Assembly (NCBI GenBank): GCA_037447655.1
Contig: JBBHKE010001133.1
Span: 19,499 to 83,498, forward strand
Origin: Zygnema cylindricum
Taxonomy: Eukaryota > Streptophyta > Zygnematophyceae > Zygnematales > Zygnemataceae
Reading direction: 5' to 3'
Length of the DNA: 64,000 nucleotides
Shown here piece after piece: positions 1-40,522 of this stretch. The position numbers were made by a program, and so were the translations under genes. The stretch's first letter is position 1, and the number at the start of each line of letters is the position of its first letter. Under the pieces are notes generated by a model, which worked only from the letters and a program-made list of their open reading frames with translations, made no database searches and was not told the DNA's origin.

Positions 1-926
1 TTTTCAAACCTGTGTAAAGTACAATTTATAATAAACATTTGTACCAGTAAAGTGAGTAGTTAAACAAAACGTTTGTTATAATCATTTCCCCTTTTCTCCT
101 TTTGGGTTCTTTAACTTTTCGTGTTTTGAACCTTCTTACGAGTCTATTTGTGTTTCATCCCTCTTAATTCGTACGAGGTTCACACTCCTACTTGCGAACC
201 TTTATTGTGGTACCCCTCACGTGCGAAATTACTATCTTCTGTTTAGTAGATGGTTGTATATTTAGCAGATGTTTAAACCATGTGGCGGGTAACAACAATT
301 GCAGTTCTTTAATAATCGTAGTGACGTTTAAATCCTAATTTTCCAGGAGGGTTGATGCACTGCCGTGGTCGAGGGGCAGCGGTACATGGAGGCGTAGATC
401 GGACGCCGGCGACGGTTGGCGTGCGGGTGCCCGTTTGAACAGAAGGGGGAAAGGAATGTAAGGATTACGGATGGGGGCCGCACCTATGCTTTTGCCCGTG
501 GGCGTGCGGTTGGCAGCGGCCGCAGGCTAGATGCGGAGGTACATGGCGACGGGGAGCTGGTGCCGTCACGTAGTTGGGAGGACCTTTTAATCCTAAATTT
601 GCAGTGATGCTAATAATTTCTTGACGTTAACAACAATGGGCGGTGTACCAAATTTGTAGACGATTTATATGTTGGTAGATGATTTGTCTTCTATCATTAA
701 AGCGTGCACTCCCCATGGTGTTATTTCCAAGCGTTCATCCTCACACTTGGAGCATGCTTAATTCTCCCTACTTTGTGTTTATCTGAGCATTCTTCCAAGT
801 TTTGTGCTTTTCAATTTCTTGGGTTTTCCTCTTTTCCCCTTTACTAATATTGTTTGCAAAACAAATTGATGAGTGAAATGACCATGTTTACAAATAATAT
901 TTAACATGAAATGTGTCCAAACTTTT
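1..926. repeat. Perfect 436-bp mirror repeat (reversed, not complemented)
   Basis: Position x equals position 927-x for every x from 1 to 436, which I checked block by block across the whole arm without a mismatch. The right arm (491-926) is the left arm read backwards on the same strand, not its reverse complement. The central 54 bases (437-490) are not mirrored. The left arm starts at the window edge, so the structure may continue upstream. The sequence is mixed, not homopurine, so it is not an ordinary H-DNA mirror repeat. GTAC, common across the window, occurs about five times in the left arm and about twice in the right, where CATG takes its place. This suggests the left arm is the native orientation. 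No convincing gene lies inside; a 63-codon open frame across the centre has no support. Confidence 0.97.
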
Positions 927-4325: not shown

Positions 4326-4610
4326 ATGGGGAATGTGGATTCGGTTCCCGTCGCATTACAGGTGAAGTCTTTAGTTCAAGCATGTTCCGGTGATATGGCT
4401 GGAGCTGAAGCTACTCAACACGCCTTTTCAAAACGTTGTGCGGTGATCTCCCAGTTACGCTCCGCCGGGGAAGCGATGCTGGGCAATGAAGAAGCCGCAC
4501 TCCAAACGCAGCTTGAATTCACTGCGCCGGAAAATTTAGCAACGCAGGCAGGCTTGATTAGTGCGATCCTCGGACCCGTCGCAGGTGCTTTGGAGAAGCG
4601 CTTGCCCTAG
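4326..4610 (+). CDS. Small intact ORF (94 aa) with a two-fold internal repeat, unknown function
   Basis: The frame is clean and opens with ATG directly after an in-frame TAA (4323-4325), so the start is well defined unless an unseen intron precedes it. Residues 9-34 and 40-65 are two copies of one motif, offset by 31 residues, sharing the pattern V..Q..S....A..G...A...TQ..F. The rest is Ala-, Gln- and Leu-rich and looks soluble, with no signal peptide or membrane segment. Codon use is balanced and there is no low-complexity bias, unlike the spurious ORFs nearby. A TATA-like box lies upstream and a perfect hairpin follows the stop. The repeat recalls tandem GD-x-x-x-A-x-x-TQ type helical repeats in uncharacterised eukaryotic proteins, but that is memory, not a search. 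I cannot assign a function. It is the best host-gene candidate in the window. Confidence 0.6.
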   Translation: MGNVDSVPVALQVKSLVQACSGDMAGAEATQHAFSKRCAVISQLRSAGEAMLGNEEAALQTQLEFTAPENLATQAGLISAILGPVAGALEKRLP

Positions 4611-7560: not shown

Positions 7561-8111
7561 TGTTACGATTCATTGAAAGAATCGTACGCGCGCGAAATCA
7601 GTTCGATTTCGCGAAGTACCGTACCTTCCAGATTTTACCGAAAGTACTCATACGTACGTTTCTATAAATTTCTATTCGTTTTGCGAAATGAATTTGTCGT
7701 TTCGTTTCGCGTTTAGATTGTCGTACGTTTTTAGATTTTTCTAGTACTTTCGTTTTGGTTTGTCGTTTTGCAATGTTTCAGTCCTTAGTGAAATTTAGAG
7801 TATTCTAGCTTAATCTGCGGACAGGTGGCAGATTTCTGGAGGCTTCTTGGCGGCGCACGCTCACACGAGTCACGCCATGGATGGTATTGTATTTAAGGGA
7901 CGCCATGACTGTGTGTTAATTAATCAATGAGAAATTGGAGGATTATATGGAGTAATAGAAAAGATAGAGAAGAAATTGTAATTTCAGTTTTTTGTTAATG
8001 TGAGAATTTTATGAAATCTCTCTTCAATGTTGATTCAATGTTTTATATTCTGAATGCTTCTGCTGCTATAAGTGTTTGTAAGTGAGCTCAAATTTATTTA
8101 TCGATCCTTTC
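7561..8111 (+). repeat. 5' LTR of copia A
   Basis: Begins TGTTACGATT and ends CCTTTCA. It matches 13006-13577 almost throughout. The sequence TATTGTATTTAAGG near 7886 could serve as a promoter element, but this is unproven. Confidence 0.93.
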
Positions 8112-8112
8112 A

Positions 8113-8127
8113 TTTGGTATCGGTGCG
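8113..8127 (+). other. Primer binding site of copia A
   Basis: TGGTATCGGTGCGGG starts two bases after the 5' LTR. Its first seven bases equal the usual plant copia primer site complementary to the 3' end of initiator tRNA-Met (TGGTATCAGAGC). It then departs, so another tRNA or a mutated site is possible. Confidence 0.65.
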
Positions 8128-8169
8128 GGTAGAGCTCCATTGTGATATCTCCTTGCCTAATGTTGGCGC

Positions 8170-9690
8170 ATGGGGGGAAAGGACAAAAAGAAGTCCCCTT
8201 TCACTCCCTCCTCTTCAGCTACCCCAGTTTCTAATATTTGGGAAAATTTGCCGACTCTCGAGGATCCTCCTAAAGAAGAGAAAGAGTTCAGTTTTACCGG
8301 AGCCGCATTTGAGTCATCATTCCCCACGGATTCGGTTGATCAAAATAGAGGTGTCGGTGGCTCGATGTCTGACAATCAATTGCGAGAGTATTTGGAGCAT
8401 TTCATGCGTCGGATTGATGAGAAGTTCTTGGCCGTGGATAGGAGGTTTGATGAATTAACTCACGGTGATCCGGATTCTGATCCGGATGGAGATGATTCCG
8501 ATGATAGTGATGGGGAGGCAAAGAAAGTGAAAGATAAGAGGGGGAAATTTAAGTTTGATGACGATTCTGATTTAGAAGAAGATAGTCAAGGAGGAGTGGA
8601 AATATTTCAGATGCCCGGAAAGACTGTCGTATTCAATGAATCGAATTACCCTTCGTGGAAGAAATATATTCGAGCTCAATTGATTTTGAGAGGCCTTTGG
8701 AAGGTCGTCAATGGAGATGAGAAAATGCCGGTTGGAGATGCTAAGGCTCGTCGTTTGTCGAAGCGAAAGAATCTTGCGGCCATCACCGGATTAATGCAAA
8801 CTTTTTCGGTATCCGTGCATGATCATTTCCTCACGCATAGCACCGCACACGGATGTTGGAAGGCGTTGGAATCCCAATTTGAGAGGGGAATCCAAAACAA
8901 GGGCCAATATATGTTTTCCGATTTCATGCAATTTAAAATGAAATCCAACGAATCTTTTGACGATGCCGTGAAGAGATTCAATATCATTGTGGAGCAACTT
9001 CTTAACAATGGGAGAGTGATCACGGAGGAGGACAAAGTAACCGGATTTTTGAATGCGTGACCGGATAAGTGGATCCACCTCAAGGAGATTTTACTTGCGA
9101 GGGAAAATAACACCTACAAGTTTATTGTGAATTATTTAAAGATGGCGGAGAGTAATCGTGTTAGCTCTTCAAAGGGCTCTTTGAACACGAGATCCTTGAA
9201 TGTGAACGCTCCCGAATTCGCAGACTTACATTATTTCCGTGGAAGTGGGGGTGGAAAAGGAGGAGGTACGAGATGCCGTGGAAATTGGCTTGATAGGGGC
9301 GGAAATTCGAGACCTCGGTCCGTCCAGAATGATAATAGCAACGTCTTGTGTTTCCGTTGCAACCGGCTTGATCATTTTTTGGCTTCTTGTACGAAAAAGG
9401 AGAAAGAATGCTTCAATTGTGGGAAACTAGGCCACACGAGCCAACAATGCTACTCTAAATTTAGTAGCGGAGGAGTAAGAGGCGGTCGCAGCTTTGGAGG
9501 TCGCGGTCGCGGACGTGATAGTGGTCGTGGTCGTGGACGCTATGGCGGTCATGGCGAAAGCCATGGAAATTTTGTTGACTTGGGAAATTTTGATGGAGAC
9601 GAAGGAGGACAAACGTTCACTTGTCTCCACCTCTCTATTGATTCATTAAGTGAACCAAGTGACGCACGCGAAAAGGAGGTGGAAAATTGA
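8170..9690 (+). pseudogene. gag: Copia A gag with two zinc knuckles, one internal stop
   Basis: Gag builds the particle and packages RNA. The frame runs from ATG 8170 to TGA 9688-9690, with one in-frame TGA at 9058-9060. Residues 1-140 are acidic and probably disordered. The copia gag core follows (about residues 155-330), with FNESNYPSWKKYIRA and a W-x-x-L-x-x-x-F region. Two C-x2-C-x4-H-x4-C knuckles start near residues 394 and 413 (CFRC..., CFNC...). A Gly/Arg-rich tail follows, resembling an RNA-binding RGG tail. The frame ends just inside the start of protease, which lies in the +1 frame. A start upstream of 8170 is unlikely because the LTR and primer site lie there. Confidence 0.9.
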
Positions 9691-11419
9691 CAAGGGAGCG
9701 TCTCACCACGTGTGTACGGACGCAACACTTTTTGACGACATGCGCTCACTTACCGTACCAAAGTTAATTACGGTAGCAAGTGGACAAACGATTACGGTTG
9801 GTAAAGTGGGTACCGCTCGATTGAATTTACCTACATGGGAACGTTTTGGAAATGAAGCTATTTCGGAGGCGCGTCTATTGAATGTCCTATATATTCCGGA
9901 TGGTTCAGTGAATCTATTAAGCGTACCTCAAATTCAGCGTGCCGGTGGAAGCGTAGTCGCTAGAGGTGATTCGGTGATTCGTATATATCGCGCAGACGGC
10001 AAATTAATCGGCGAAGGCGAAGTCACCAATTCGATGCATAGTCGACTTTTATGGAAGCGACCGAGGAAGAATGCTACTTCCACGGGTATCCTAAATCAAA
10101 TCTCGGAATTAAAGGGAGATTTAACGTTATGGCACCATCAGATGTGTCATACATCCGAAGGAAATTTGAGGAAAATGATAAAAACGGCATGTGTAAGAGG
10201 ATTAGATCTTGCTACCGGCGAAAAAGTAAATGGGTGTGATGGATGTAGTCAAGGACGACAAATTCGTAAATCACATCCAACAAAGGATGTGAAATTTCGG
10301 GCTCAACATCCTTTGGAGCTTGTCCACGTTGATCTATGTGGACAAATTAAGCCGGAAAGCCTTGGAGGAAATCGATTTATTATGGTCATCGTTGATGATT
10401 ATTCAATATTTTCGTGGGTTCGATTATTGAAGAGGAAATCGGATGCTCTTCAAACTTTTATTGAGTGGCATGCATTTGCCGAAAGACAATGCGAACGGAA
10501 ATTGAAAGCCATTCGTTCGGATAATGGAGGAGAATTTATCGCATTCGAAAGGTATTGTAAGGAGAAAGGAATTACCCAACAATTTACTTCACCTTATTCT
10601 CCGGAATCGAATGGAGTAGCCGAAAGGAAGAATAGGACCTTACAAGAAATGGTGAGGGCGATGGTGCATTCGGCCGGTCAAAGTATCTCATTATGGGGAG
10701 ATGCTATCCTCACGGCCAATTACATTTGTAATCGGAGACTTACTTCGGTTTCCGGTGATAAAACACCATTCGAATTACTTTATGGGCGAAAACCGGCTCT
10801 CCATCATCTCCGAATATGGGGATGCCGCGCTACGGTGTATGTGGATCAAGTGAAAAGGAAAGGGAAATTTGCGGCAAGAAGTTGGCCCGGAATTTTCGTG
10901 GGCTATAGCACGAAAGGAAATCTTTATCGTGTATTTGATCCTGTTCGTCGCATTGTGGAAGAATCTAGAAATGTCAATTTTCATGAAGACTTAAAATCGG
11001 TTATTGAGAAATCGGCGGAATTGAAGAAGAATCTTGATTTTTATGAGGTAGACGATGTTGCCAATTTCCCGAAAATTGAGGACTCAGATTCGGATGAGGA
11101 ACCGGAATCCATTGTTAACATCAAGAAGGGAAAATCAAATGTTAATTCGAGTTTGGAGAAATTGGACATTGACATTGATGTTCGGAGAAATGTGAGCTGT
11201 AATTCCAAAATGTCGACGGAAAGTCTAAAATCTTCGAGTTCAAAATCGAATGTGGACGAGGAGGAGAAGATTGTGGAACAAGTTCCGGTCCTTAGACGGA
11301 GTACTCGAGAGAATAGAGGAAAGAAACCAAATCGACTTTCTTATGACAAAATTGGTGGAGAGAATTCCAATTCCCATTATTTCGTCTCCGATGTGAAGGA
11401 GACGAAATTCCTTTTATAA
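9650..11419 (+). pseudogene. pol: Copia A pol, part 1: protease and integrase
   Basis: This frame opens after a TAA at 9647-9649 and overlaps the end of gag by 41 nt in the +1 frame. The protease start reads WKIDKGASHHVC; the catalytic Asp is present but the following Ser/Thr is Lys, so activity is doubtful. The zinc-binding HHCC region follows (LWHHQMCHTSEG ... GCDGCSQG). The integrase core has all three acids: D in HVDLCG, D in RSDNGGEF and E in PESNGVAER. A GYSTKGNLYRVFD segment leads into a charged linker, RRSTRENRGKKPNRLSYD. The frame closes at TAA 11417-11419, and RT continues in the same frame directly after it. Without a gag-pol shift or splicing it could not be expressed. Confidence 0.93.
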
Positions 11420-11425
11420 CAATTA
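11417..11425 (+). promoter_or_regulatory. Candidate leaky stop between IN and RT in copia A
   Basis: TAA CAA TTA lies in frame between integrase and RT. CAATTA fits CARYYA, the 3' context that makes the tobacco mosaic virus replicase stop leaky. Copia B has a stop at the same alignment position in the same kind of context (TAG CAA TCA). Readthrough is inferred, not shown. Confidence 0.6.
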
Positions 11426-12975
11426 ATGTGCGAGAATTTGGCCGGCGATCCTCAATCATACGCAGAGGCGAGAAACTCGTGTGATTGGGAAACGAAGTGG
11501 AAGCCGGCATGGGAGAAGGAGTATAAATCAATTGTGGAAAATCGGACATTTGAGGAAGTAAAATTACCGAAAGGAAAGAAAGCTATTGATGCGAAATGGG
11601 TCTTCAAAACTAAAACTGGTGCATCGGGTGAAGTAGTAAAATATAAAGCGAGACTTGTATGCAAAGGATTTCAGCAAAGAGAGGGGGTAGATTACACGGA
11701 GACGTATGCCCCCGTTGTGAAATTCGACTCTTTAAGGATTATTATGGCGATTGCCGCTGCAAAGAAGAAACACGTTCATCAAATGGATGTGGAGACCGCG
11801 TTCCTAAATGGAGACTTAGAAGAAGAGGTTTATATGAAGGTACCCGAAGGCGTGACATCACAAGAAGGCACGGTATGGCGTCTTCGCAAATCGCTCTACG
11901 GATTGAAGCAAGCGCCTCGCACTTGGTATTTACGACTACACAAGGTACTTTTGGATTTTGGTTTCACACGTACGATCTCGGATTCTGGAGTGTAGGTGAA
12001 AGGACAAGGAAAAGATCAAATTATATTTTCGGTTTACGTCGATGATTTCTTGATGACGTCGGATAGTTTGGAACATATACGCGAATTGAAAGCGTACTTA
12101 CGACAACATTTCAAAGTCACAGATCTTGGCGAAGTAAAATATATTTTGGGAATTGAAGTTATTCGAATAAGAACGGGGATATAAAGTTAAGTCAAGCACA
12201 ATATTGTAAAGAGGTATTAAATCGGTTTTCTATGCTTGACGCAAAACCAATTTCGACGCCTGTGGACGCGAAAAGTCAATTGCGAAAGTTCGAGGAAGAA
12301 GCGACGGTAGATGTACCGTACCGCGAAGCGATTGGAAGTTTAATGTACCTAAGTGTTGGTACGCGGCCCGATATTTCGGCCGCCGTTTCAATTGTAAGTC
12401 GATATTGCCAAGCGCCAAAGAAATCACATTGGGAAGCCGTCAAGCGTATATTTCAATACTTGGCGGGTACTAGCGATATCGGTCTTGTTTTTAAATCTAA
12501 AAGCGAATCGTTGGAATGCGTCGGATATTGCGACGCCGATTGGGGCGGAGATTTCGATTCGGGAAAATCAACGTCTGGATACGCATTCGTGTTTGGTGGA
12601 GCGGCGATCTCGTGGAGTTCACGACTCCAACCAACCGTGGCATTAAGTTCAACAGAGGCCGAGTATATGGCGGCGTGCCACGCAAGCAAGGCATCAATAT
12701 GGATAAGGGAAATGTTAAGCGAGCTTGGATTTTCGATTGGATGCTTAAAATTTTTTACGGATAGTATGAGTTCAATGGCACTTGTGAAAAATCCCGTATT
12801 TCATAAGCGCACTAAACATATACGGATTCAATGGCATTTCGTACGAGATTTGGTAGCGGCAAAAGAAGTGGAATTTTTGTATGTATCGACACTTGAGGAA
12901 GCTGCCGATATGCTTACTAAGGCGGCGACGTTTGATGTGCTTTTAAGAGGAAGACCTAAACTAGGATTATTCTGA
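11420..12975 (+). pseudogene. pol: Copia A pol, part 2: reverse transcriptase and RNase H
   Basis: It continues in frame from the IN stop. RT landmarks are YKARLVCKGFQQ, the catalytic-site block HQMDVETAFLNGDLEEEVYM, SLYGLKQAPRTWY and the YVDD box near 12030. A TAG at 11993-11995 replaces a Tyr codon (TAC in A2). A 1-base change near 12170-12180 (IRIRTGI*) shifts the frame relative to A2. RNase H then runs 12232-12975 with CDADWGGD, the STEAEYMA acid and FTDSMSSMALVKN, ending ADMLTKAA. The 3' part is about 95% like A2. Both lesions make this copy non-functional. Confidence 0.95.
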
Positions 12976-13005
12976 CGTAGACGATTCTTCAATGAAGAGG
13001 GGGGA
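12976..13005 (+). other. Polypurine tract before the copia A 3' LTR
   Basis: GAAGAGGGGGGA sits directly upstream of TGTTACG (13006). It is the expected plus-strand primer for reverse transcription. Confidence 0.75.
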
Positions 13006-13577
13006 TGTTACGATTTATTGAAAAAATCGTACGCGCGCGGAATCAATTTGATTTCGCGAAGTACCGTACCTTCCTGATTTTACCGAAAGTACTCATACGT
13101 ACGTTTCGATAAAGTTCTATTCGTTTCGCGAAATGAATTTGTCGTTTCGTTTCGCGTCTAGATTGTCGTACGTCTAGTTTAGTACGATAGTACTTTTAGA
13201 TTTTTCTAGTACTTTCGTTTTGGTTTGTCGTTTTGCAATGTTTCAGTCCTAAGTGAAATTTAGAGTATTCTAGCTTAATCTGCGGACAGGTGGCAGATTT
13301 CTGGAGGCTTCTTGGCGGCGCACGCTCACACGTGCCACCCCATGGCTGGTATTGTATTTAAGGGACACTATGACTGTGTGTTAATTAATCAATGAGAAAT
13401 TGGAGGATTATATGGAGTAATAGAAAAGATAGAGAAGAAATTGTAATTTCAGTTTTTTGTTAATGTGAGAATTTTATGAAATGTCTCTTCAATGTTGATT
13501 CAATGTTTTATATTCTGAATGCTTCTGCTGCTATAAGTGTTTGTAAGTGAGCTCAAATTTATTTATCGATCCTTTCA
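13006..13577 (+). repeat. 3' LTR of copia A
   Basis: TGTTACGATTT...CCTTTCA, 572 bp, matching the 5' LTR. It carries a short duplicated GTACGTCTAGTTTAGTACGA-type insertion absent from the 5' copy. It is followed by the GATGT duplication. Confidence 0.93.
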
Positions 13578-14371: not shown

Positions 14372-15371
14372 ATCTAATTCTAGAGTGTACGTGAAAGGAC
14401 AAGGAATGGATCAAATTATATTTTTAGTGTACGTCGATGATTTCTTGATGACGTCACATAGTATGAAACGTATACGCGAATTGAAAGCGTACCTACGTCA
14501 ACATTTCAAAGTGACATATCTTGGCGAAGTAAAATATATTTTGGCGATCGAAGTGATTCGTAATGCAAACGGAGACATAAAGTTAAGTCAGGCGCAATAT
14601 TGTAAGGAGGTCTTAACGCGGTTTTCTATGCTTGACGCAAAACCAATTTCGACGCCTATGGACGCGAAAAGTCAATTGCGAAAGTTCGAGGAAGAAGCGA
14701 CGGTAGATGTACCGTATCGCGAAGCGATTGGAAGTTTAATGTACCTAAGTGTTGGTACGCGGCCCGATATTTCGGCCGCCGTTTCAATTGTAAGTCGATA
14801 TTGTCAAGCGCCTAAGAAATCGCATTGGGAAGCCGTCAAGCGTATATTTCGATACTTGGCGGGAACTATAGATATCGGTCTTGTATTCAAATCTGAAATT
14901 GAATCGCTGGAATGCGTCGGATATTGCGACGCCGATTGGGGCGGAGATTTTGATTCGGGAAAATCAACGTCCGGATATGCATTTGTGTTTGGTGGAGCGG
15001 CGATTTCGTGGAGTTCGCGCTTGCAACCAACCGTGGCACTAAGTTCAACGGAGGCCGAGTATATGGCGGCGTGCCACGCAAGCAAGGCATCAATATGGAT
15101 AAAAGAAATGTTAAGCGAACTTGGATTTTCGATTGGATGCCTAAAAATTTTTACGGATAGTATGAGTTCAATGGCACTTGTGAAAAATCCAGTATTTCAC
15201 AAGCGCACTAAACATATACGGATTCAATGGCATTTTGTACGAGATTTGGTAACGGCTAAAGAAGTGGAATTTTTGTATGTATCGACACTTGAGGAAGCTG
15301 CCGATATGCTTACTAAGGCGGCGACGTTTGATGTGCTTTTAAGAGGAAGACCTAAACTAGGATTATTGTGA
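14372..15371 (+). pseudogene. pol: Copia A2: RT C-terminus and RNase H fragment (open frame)
   Basis: A single open frame from the YVKGQG segment before YVDD to the end of RNase H (328 codons from ATG 14385). It has YVDDFLMTS, CDADWGGD, STEAEYMAA and FTDSMSSMA, and tracks copia A codon for codon, which exposes the lesions in A. It lacks gag, protease, integrase and the RT fingers. The upstream junction is with an inverted LTR, so it has no normal promoter. It is a rearranged remnant despite its open frame. Confidence 0.9.
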
Positions 15372-15403
15372 CGTAGACGATTCTTCAATGAAGAGGGGGA
15401 ATG

Positions 15404-15640
15404 TTACGATTCATTGAAAGAATCGTACGCACGCGGAATCAGTTTGATTTCGCAAGTGTACTTTTTTGAATGAATCGCGAAAGTACTATTTCGTGAAAGT
15501 ACTAGTATGTTTGTTTCGCGAAATATATTTGTTGTTTCGTTTCGCGTCTAGATTGTCGTACGTCTAATTTAGTACGTTAGTACTTCTAGTTTTGTCTAGT
15601 ACTTTCGTCTTAGCTTGTCGTTTTGCTATGTTTCTGCCCT
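15404..15640 (+). repeat. 3' LTR of copia A2 (variant)
   Basis: TGTTACGATTCATTG at 15404 follows a purine tract (AAGAGGGGGAA) and matches the first 240 bp or so of the A LTR. From about 15640 it diverges completely, so the LTR is either recombinant or a different subfamily whose 3' end I cannot place. Confidence 0.8.
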
Positions 15641-16284
15641 TAGTGAGAATTAGTTTGTGGCTGAATAGTGACACGTGGCATCATGTGATAAGGCCACTCA
15701 TAGAACACATTTCACAACATGGTGAAGCATACAGAGATATAAATGCATCCAGGCATTAGAGACAAGTGAGATGCAGGCATTAGAGACAAGTATCTCACAC
15801 AAACATTACATTCATAGAATTCAAGGAATTAAGACATGACATTTATTCTGAGTCTTTCTGTACATAGAGATAGATAGCATTAGAATTAGGAGGATAATTC
15901 AGCTTTATTAGTGTAGAAAGTTTAGGAAACAATTGTACTTTGTTGTCCTATCTTATTAATCAAATCCAAGCTGTCTAAACCTGCCTCTCTTTAATTTACC
16001 TATCTATGCCTTCTCCCTTCTCTAATCTATCCCCTGTGATACTCTAAGGTCCACCCTAGCGGTGTATGTTTGGGACGCGACTACTTTAGCCTGAGGCCAC
16101 GGGCTACGGTGATTGTTCCAAACTAATAGTCTTAAGTTCTCACATTTTTTTTTATCCAATTGATCAATTTGATGTCTTCTTCACGTCTAATTTTATCATG
16201 TACAGCTTAACCAGATGTTGGTAGTTACATGAGCACCGCAGTTCACTTGGTAGAAAAAATTCTTATGATTTTCTTCTCCGACAA
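15641..16284. other. Unassigned stretch, possibly the rest of the A2 LTR
   Basis: No gene is recognised. A duplicated GCAGGCATTAGAGACAAGT-like unit lies at about 15750-15793. Confidence 0.35.
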
Positions 16285-38669: not shown

Positions 38670-39860
38670 TTATATGAGGCAACCTGAAATATATGCAGAG
38701 ACCGGAAAAGAAAATCTGGTCTGTAAATAGCTGATATCTTGGTACAGTTTAAAGCAGGTTCCACATTAGTGGAATGTGAAACTAGATGAGTTTGTAACTG
38801 GTCTCGGATATGTAAGGATTAGTTCAGATCACTCAATCAACGTTATGGAAGGGGAAGATGGAAAAAATTTACATTGTGGTGTATGTAGATGATTTGTTGC
38901 TACTATGTAAGTCATTCAATGAGATTAATAAAACAAAGGCAGCCTTGAATTCCAGATTTGAGATGAAAGATTTAGGAGAGGCAAAGTATATTCTTGGAAT
39001 TCAAGTAGTAAGGGATAGAGATAGAAAAATAATCTATTTAACGCAGCAGGAAGCGGTTGGGAATATGCTTGAAAAGATTGGCATGGCAGAGGCAAAAGGA
39101 AGTGCCACTCCCATGGAATTTAAGCAAAAGGTAGAAGGCATGGAAATTAATAGAGGAGTCTTTTTGATGACACCTTGGAACCAGGAAAGGCAAGTTCTAT
39201 GGCTCCCATTCCAAACCGACTGATTGTCCGCAGCCTAATCTACTTCATGAACTGCACACGGTCGGATATTGCTGCAGCAGTTGGTGCCTTAAATCAGAGT
39301 TTACAAAATCCGAGTAGATCGAATTGGGAGGCAATAAAGAGGGTTCTTCATTACCTTGTAGTGACAATGAATCTGCGACTTGCTCTCGGTGGAGATGACG
39401 TCAAAATTCAGACTTGGAGTGATGCGAGCTACGGAAACATGCCAAGCTGCAGCTCCACCGGATTCATTCTGAAGATTGGAAGTGGAATATGTTGCTGGAG
39501 CAGCAAGCTTCATATAGTCAAAGCTCAGTCTATGATGGAGGCTGAATACATGGAATCCAGCTCCACTGTCAAAGAGTTACTTTGGGTAAAGTCTCCCAAG
39601 AACTTCATTTCATGCAAGCAGGACCACAATTAGTTTGGTGTGACAACCAGGCAGCTATAGCGATTCCATCTAACCCAATTCATCACTTCAAAAGCCAACA
39701 CATTGATATCAAGCTGCACTTTGTAAGAGAAAAGGTGATGAACAGAATTTTAAAACTCAGTTATCTGCCGGATGAGAAGATGCTAGCAGATTTGATGACT
39801 AAACCTCTACCTGCACCTAAATTGCAATTTTGTAGAGAGGCATGTGGACTTAGTGGCTGA
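38670..39860 (+). pseudogene. pol: Copia C reverse transcriptase second half and RNase H
   Basis: It resumes with YMRQPEIYAETGKENLVCK and FVTGLGYVRISSDHSIN, then VVYVDDLLLL near 38877 and KDLGEAKYILGIQVVRD. A frameshift near 39175 leads to RNase H: TRSDIAAAVG, TWSDASYG, MMEAEYMESS, WCDNQAAIAIP and HIDIKLHFVREKV, ending ADLMTKPLP. A stop at about 38728 and two frame changes disable it. Confidence 0.92.
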
Positions 39861-39886: not shown

Positions 39887-40522
39887 TGTTTTGGAAACGT
39901 GTAGTTCTCTCTATATCTAGTGTGTGAGAAAGAGATTCAAGACTTAGTCACTTTTGTGAACAGACTATATTATAATAGATAGGTGTTAGTGTGGTATGTA
40001 GCTTCGAAAGGAGTACACAGACTTGGTACACTCCAGGGACACGTGTCAGTCCATAAGATAGCAGACAAAAGCAGTGTTCATTTTTGAAATGAAATATTGA
40101 CTGTGTAGTCATTTTAGGTACTTATCATTTTGGCGGCCTTCAGATTTAAGTTTGATGTAAATAATTCCGTCTATTAGGATTTAGGGTTCTGGTAGAACAC
40201 TTATATATAAGACATATTACTCTTGTAAGAAAGAACTCCTTGTATGCAAAATTGTGAAGCACTTTTTTGGGGTTTATGAGTTACAAGTATCATTGTGATC
40301 TTTTAGCAGAATTGTTTCAAATTCTACATGTGGGTTCTTTGTGTTATTGCCTTTACTTTGGCAAATTTGCAGACCTAGGGTGTGTCTGGTTTTTTTCAAA
40401 CTTCATTTTGAAGTCAGCAGTTTGTGGGTTCATTGTGAGAGTTTCGTGTTGTTTACCTGTGTTATTATTATGGCAACTGCTGGTGCTTTTTCGGCTGCAA
40501 CACCAGCTACCTCATTACAACA
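39887..40522 (+). repeat. 3' LTR of copia C
   Basis: TGTTTTGGAAACG...ATTACAACA, preceded by the polypurine-like TTTAGGGGAG. It matches the 5' LTR with scattered changes. Confidence 0.93.

Follow-up and report, generated by a model that had tools for sequence, protein, structure and literature searches.

The window analysed here is a stretch of 64,000 nucleotides of Zygnema cylindricum DNA, located at C847:19499-83498 in a genome assembly of 352,776,454 bases and 2,689 contigs. It opens with a mirror: bases 1-436 equal bases 926-491 read backwards and without complementation, and all 436 of the 436 pairs (base x against base 927-x) are the same. Between the two arms lies a 54-base centre, in which mirroring falls to the chance level (7 of 27 pairs). 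The original prediction had described a perfect 436-bp mirror around a 54-bp unmirrored centre, and this description was confirmed to the base. Its further statements, that the sequence is reversed without complementation instead of forming an inverted repeat and that the identity lies beyond chance, also hold: 5 of the 463 pairs across the mirror axis are complementary, and the probability of a 436-base mirror run arising by chance at one axis is ~10^-256. An inverted repeat or hairpin chimera, either of which calls for reverse-complementary arms, was thus rejected as a description of the structure. No 14-base match to the left arm's reverse complement occurs within the window. The coordinates of the mirror and of related features are collected in Table 1.

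Table 1. Mirror structures, N runs, and other elements (window positions unless a contig is named)
Feature	Coordinates	Strand	Description
Left arm	1..436	.	Reversed, non-complemented copy of 491-926; very probably spurious; abuts the gap at C847:17750-19498, just outside the window
Centre (Y)	437..490	+	Native, continuous with the right arm; boundary to the very probably spurious arm at ~435-437
Right arm (X)	491..926	+	Native; source of the reversed copy
Dispersed repeat piece	437..582	+	Conserved upstream part of the other copies is absent here
First N run	C847:17750-19498		1,749 N
Second N run	C847:141367-141901		535 N
Second gap-edge mirror (L023)	C847:141902-142069		Exact; arm 141902-141975 (74 bases), CT-rich 20-base centre, partner 141996-142069
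Third N run	C1031:39526-39535		10 N
Third gap-edge mirror (L037, L038)	C1031:39536-40018		Arm 39536-39666 (131 bases), 221-base centre, partner 39888-40018
Fourth N run (L017, L039, L041)	C450:134401-136900		Exactly 2,500 N
Open frame	4326-4610		94 residues
Copia-type retrotransposon	7561-13577		Direct repeats 7561-8112 and 13006-13577, 93% identical
Second copy of the 3' part of the copia element	14377-15653		90%

Elsewhere in the window (927-64000), exact mirror runs with a base entropy above 1.5 bits reach at most 17 bases; the 436-base arm is far longer than any such mixed mirror. The six longest runs of any composition in the same interval span 57-59 bases and consist of TC repeat, and a word search of the window found two self-mirroring 18-base words. 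Either arm contains 153 T, 102 A, 96 G, and 85 C, with purines at 198 of the 436 positions, in agreement with the mixed composition that had been proposed. In the portions of the literature consulted, DNA mirror repeats and H-DNA motifs have mirror symmetry on a single strand in common with this structure; H-DNA motifs are described there as homopurine-homopyrimidine, whereas the arm here is mixed and very probably spurious. An H-DNA mirror repeat was rejected as a candidate on these grounds. A 24-base word of the right arm had no hits in the genome_contigs and viral_contigs collections, a 24-base word of the left arm had none in viral_contigs, and bases 1-926 gave no match against plasmids.

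The base preceding window position 1 is N, and the left arm has no upstream continuation; 436 bases is therefore the full arm length as far as the assembly reaches. This N is the last of the 1,749 in the first run, and the anomalous sequence thus abuts the gap exactly. Since the run ends where the window starts, the start of the window and the start of the mirror both fall on the gap edge. The sequence to the left of this gap (C847 before 17750) runs out in a TC microsatellite, which may have caused the gap.

The whole of C847 (239,985 bases) was read and contains two gaps. The second is likewise followed by a mirror, exact in every pair, that begins on the first base after the N run. In bases 1-41500 of another contig, C1031, there is one gap, and again a mirror starts on the next base. 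Within bases 1-40000 of that contig, this mirror was visible as 113 bases, clipped by the end of the stretch; the gap-edge rule foretold an arm start at 39536, which the following 1,500 bases bore out. At all three loci, the layout read rightward from the gap is the same: gap, reversed X, Y, X. At a fourth gap, on C450, no mirror was found within 2,600 bases rightward, and none was found on its left edge either; this gap, with its round length, may be of a different origin from the odd-length gaps. The runs of 1,749, 535, and 10 N look like scaffold gaps. Although an N run alone is no proof of a gap, the argument for an artefact stands on more than the origin of the N runs.

In this sample of four gaps, three of the four right edges carry a mirror (two of three if the first-found gap is left out). 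Three of the four left edges carry none, and the remaining one is a TC repeat, which mirrors itself and cannot tell either way. Measured from the edges without any composition filter, mirror runs extend over 436, 74, 131, and 6 bases at right edges and over 36 (the pure TC repeat), 6, 4, and 8 bases at left edges. As a control, 1,000 random positions in C847 gave a 99th percentile of 11 bases for the right side and 9 for the left, with largest values of 25 and 34, respectively.

Mirrors were also sought away from the gaps. A scan of C847 for runs of at least 20 bases with an entropy of at least 1.5 and partners within 20 kb found, away from gaps, mixed mirrors of only 23-29 bases, between the left arm and a repeat copy at 12340-12733. 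Low-entropy repeats in this contig mirror over longer stretches, for example 94-96 bases at 138786-138965. Away from its gap, C1031:1-41500 yielded only self-overlapping runs of 16-19 bases (entropy of at least 1.4, partners within 6 kb). Apart from these short runs, mirrors of mixed composition in C847 and the 41.5 kb of C1031 were thus confined to gap edges.

Related copies elsewhere in the genome reveal which arm is native. A search with bases 1-926 returned at least 165 matches, and the best 40 of 218 candidates were scored. Besides the window itself and a match on C2040, there are 38 scored copies that reach ~582, with 30 starting at 435 and 8 at 432-459; the other rows among the matches listed for this query start at 528 or later. 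Bases 584-2421 are colinear with C2040 at ~90% identity (95% for 584-926), and bases 491-582 match a dispersed repeat family. The left arm (1-432), searched against the 352.8-Mb genome, matched only itself. Within this genome, only one arm therefore has homologues, an outcome that the original prediction had named as the mark of an assembly or data error.

Seven of the 38 scored copies, six from loci L003-L008 and one at C847:12271, were aligned. They are 0.91-0.98 identical to the centre and 0.87-0.96 identical to the right arm over its first 92 bases. Over the 60 bases upstream of the centre, identity between the window and the seven copies is 0.44-0.49, against a background with a mean of 0.43 and a maximum of 0.58 among 200 comparisons. 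Among themselves, the copies are 0.73 to 1.00 identical over those upstream bases (median of 0.92 across 21 pairs). Because the copies match the centre and the right arm and agree on another upstream sequence, native sequence extends through the centre into the right arm, whereas the left arm stands in the place of other sequence; all seven aligned copies contradict it. The dispersed repeat to which these copies and window bases 437-582 belong also includes C847:12271-12800, which lies ~7.5 kb upstream within C847 itself, and its other copies carry tandem units of ~68 bases downstream.

A comparable picture emerged at the C1031 mirror, for which 1,129 first-look candidates were obtained and 40 scored, giving 40 non-self rows. 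Of these, 39 start at query position 345 or later (X occupies 353-465), and X at this locus belongs to an abundant repeat. The one remaining row, on C1917 at 78%, covers 137-359 and therefore the centre (Y occupies 132-352); in the C1917 copy, the centre has the same orientation, with X ~440 bases further on. The reversed arm (query 1-131) is covered by none of the 40 scored non-self rows and, when searched alone against the genome, matched only itself, so that no further reversed copy came to light. The locus at C847:141902 has no second genomic match.

Orientation statistics point in the same direction. Held-out Markov models of orders 2 to 5 favour the right arm as the native one by 7.5 to 11.9 bits, and 0.2 to 1.0% of 630 reversed held-out stretches score as high. 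A separate test with 144 held-out stretches agrees: five of them score as high at order 1, one at order 2, and none at any order from 3 to 5. The arms at the other loci have the same sign at weaker values, namely 0.6 to 4.0 bits for the 74-base arm and 1.8 to 6.5 bits for the 131-base arm. The centre of the window mirror scores between -0.8 and +0.7 bits and is undecided by this measure; its orientation is settled by the repeat copies. The centre at C847:141976 leans reversed by 0.8 to 1.7 bits, which is no clear signal. At C1031 the centre leans reversed by 2.2 to 4.9 bits, although the C1917 copy speaks against this lean. The original prediction had suggested, from GTAC counts, that the left arm is native and the right reversed. 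These counts do favour the left arm (5 against 2, with 302 GTAC against 215 CATG in the rest of the window), but GTAC is one weak 4-mer among many, and both the k-mer spectrum and the genomic copies show the opposite arrangement.

Taken with the gap context, these observations make it almost certain that the mirror arose during assembly of the genome, through a software error where sequence resumes to the right of a scaffold gap; the organism's own DNA very probably contains no such feature. The original prediction had left the choice between an unknown process and, more probably, a data artefact; the gap edges, the repeat copies, and the absence of matches to the left arm uphold the latter part and speak against the former. 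Were some biological process to make reversed, uncomplemented copies of DNA, the mirror would exist in the organism; the exact identity and a run beyond chance speak for this reading. We know of no enzyme that makes such copies. Moreover, the arm begins on the first base after the gap in three of three cases, always on the right side; the repeat copies hold another sequence in the place of the left arm; and no pair of mixed composition occurs away from the gaps in the contigs scanned, save the short cross-matches and self-overlaps described above. The probability of such a process is, in our view, practically nil. The co-occurrence of mirrors and gaps could also be read in reverse, with real mirror repeats breaking the assembler such that gaps fall beside them. 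However, arms that are reversed without complementation share no long words on either strand and should not confuse an assembler based on overlaps or k-mers; the arm also reaches exactly to the gap base and is contradicted by the repeat copies. This explanation is exceedingly improbable.

Two further explanations place the error at other stages of data handling. As the mirror begins at base 1 of the window, the reversal might have been planted or made during preparation of the window and be absent from the public assembly. That coincidence is explained by the window starting where the N run ends, and the same structure stands at two places in the genome outside the window, leaving this a highly improbable origin. 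Errors in reads are the other candidate: hairpin or strand-switch chimeras, in which flanking sequence is duplicated about a short centre, could have been assembled. These chimeras carry the duplicate as a reverse complement, which the low count of complementary pairs contradicts, and the exactness over 436 bases, together with the gap-edge rule, points instead to the handling of strings. A read-level origin is thus very unlikely.

How software could generate such a string can be outlined for the preferred reading, an assembly artefact at the gap edge. A gap-filling or end-extension step would take X from the right flank as its seed. As a flank on the right of a gap needs leftward extension, strings must be turned round; the seed X, once turned, would find Y. 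If only Y were then turned back, the seed would be left reversed and uncomplemented before Y, yielding reversed X, Y, X. An alternative route to the same string would be for a reverse-complemented seed to be complemented without being turned. In the parts of its description consulted, one published program (PMC9575681) treats the right flank by a separate "left extension" that uses a direction flag; it is cited as an example of design and not as the culprit. The seed account would explain why the arms are exactly identical yet uncomplemented, why the centre differs in length (54, 20, and 221 bases), and why the mirrors stand on one side only, which fits a single branch of a program. It would not cover the variable length of X (436, 74, and 131 bases) or the clean gap on C450. 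We tentatively suggest, as a possibility short of the probable, that a seemingly undescribed gap-filler fault planted reversed, uncomplemented flank copies at right gap edges throughout this assembly and perhaps in other public genomes that the same program produced. Should the gap frequency of C847 and C1031 hold elsewhere, the affected edges would number roughly in the thousands.

The artefact is ordinary in kind and unusual in form. Misassembly at gap-closing sites in draft genomes likewise leaves erroneous sequence bordering a scaffold gap, according to the sections consulted of PMC9575681. The misassembly classes given in those sections are relocation, inversion (onto the other strand), and translocation; a reversed, uncomplemented copy falls outside them. 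A limited literature search, mainly of titles and the openings of abstracts, found no description of reversed, uncomplemented flank copies at gap edges, and a phrase match in PMC9635638 proved irrelevant in the part of the text consulted. Although biologically of no importance, the finding matters for the quality control of assemblies and is worth reporting to the keeper of this one. Searches for direct or inverted repeats are blind to reversed copies, and reversed blocks put false sequence into gene and repeat annotation. The signature of gap, reversed X, Y, and X on the right side is, however, easy to screen for and trim.

The window also holds elements of other kinds. No tRNA and no Rfam family at gathering score were detected, and the 94-residue open frame has no Pfam match and no protein hit at an E-value of 0.001. 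Retroelement domains were found in two of the seven open frames tested. Named plant hits assign the reverse transcriptase to the Ty1/copia type, and its best listed hit shows 61% identity across 99% of the query; together with the retroelement domains, this makes a eukaryotic host very probable. The forward long terminal repeat of the copia element has at least 42 matches in the genome, with the best 40 of 391 first-look candidates scored.
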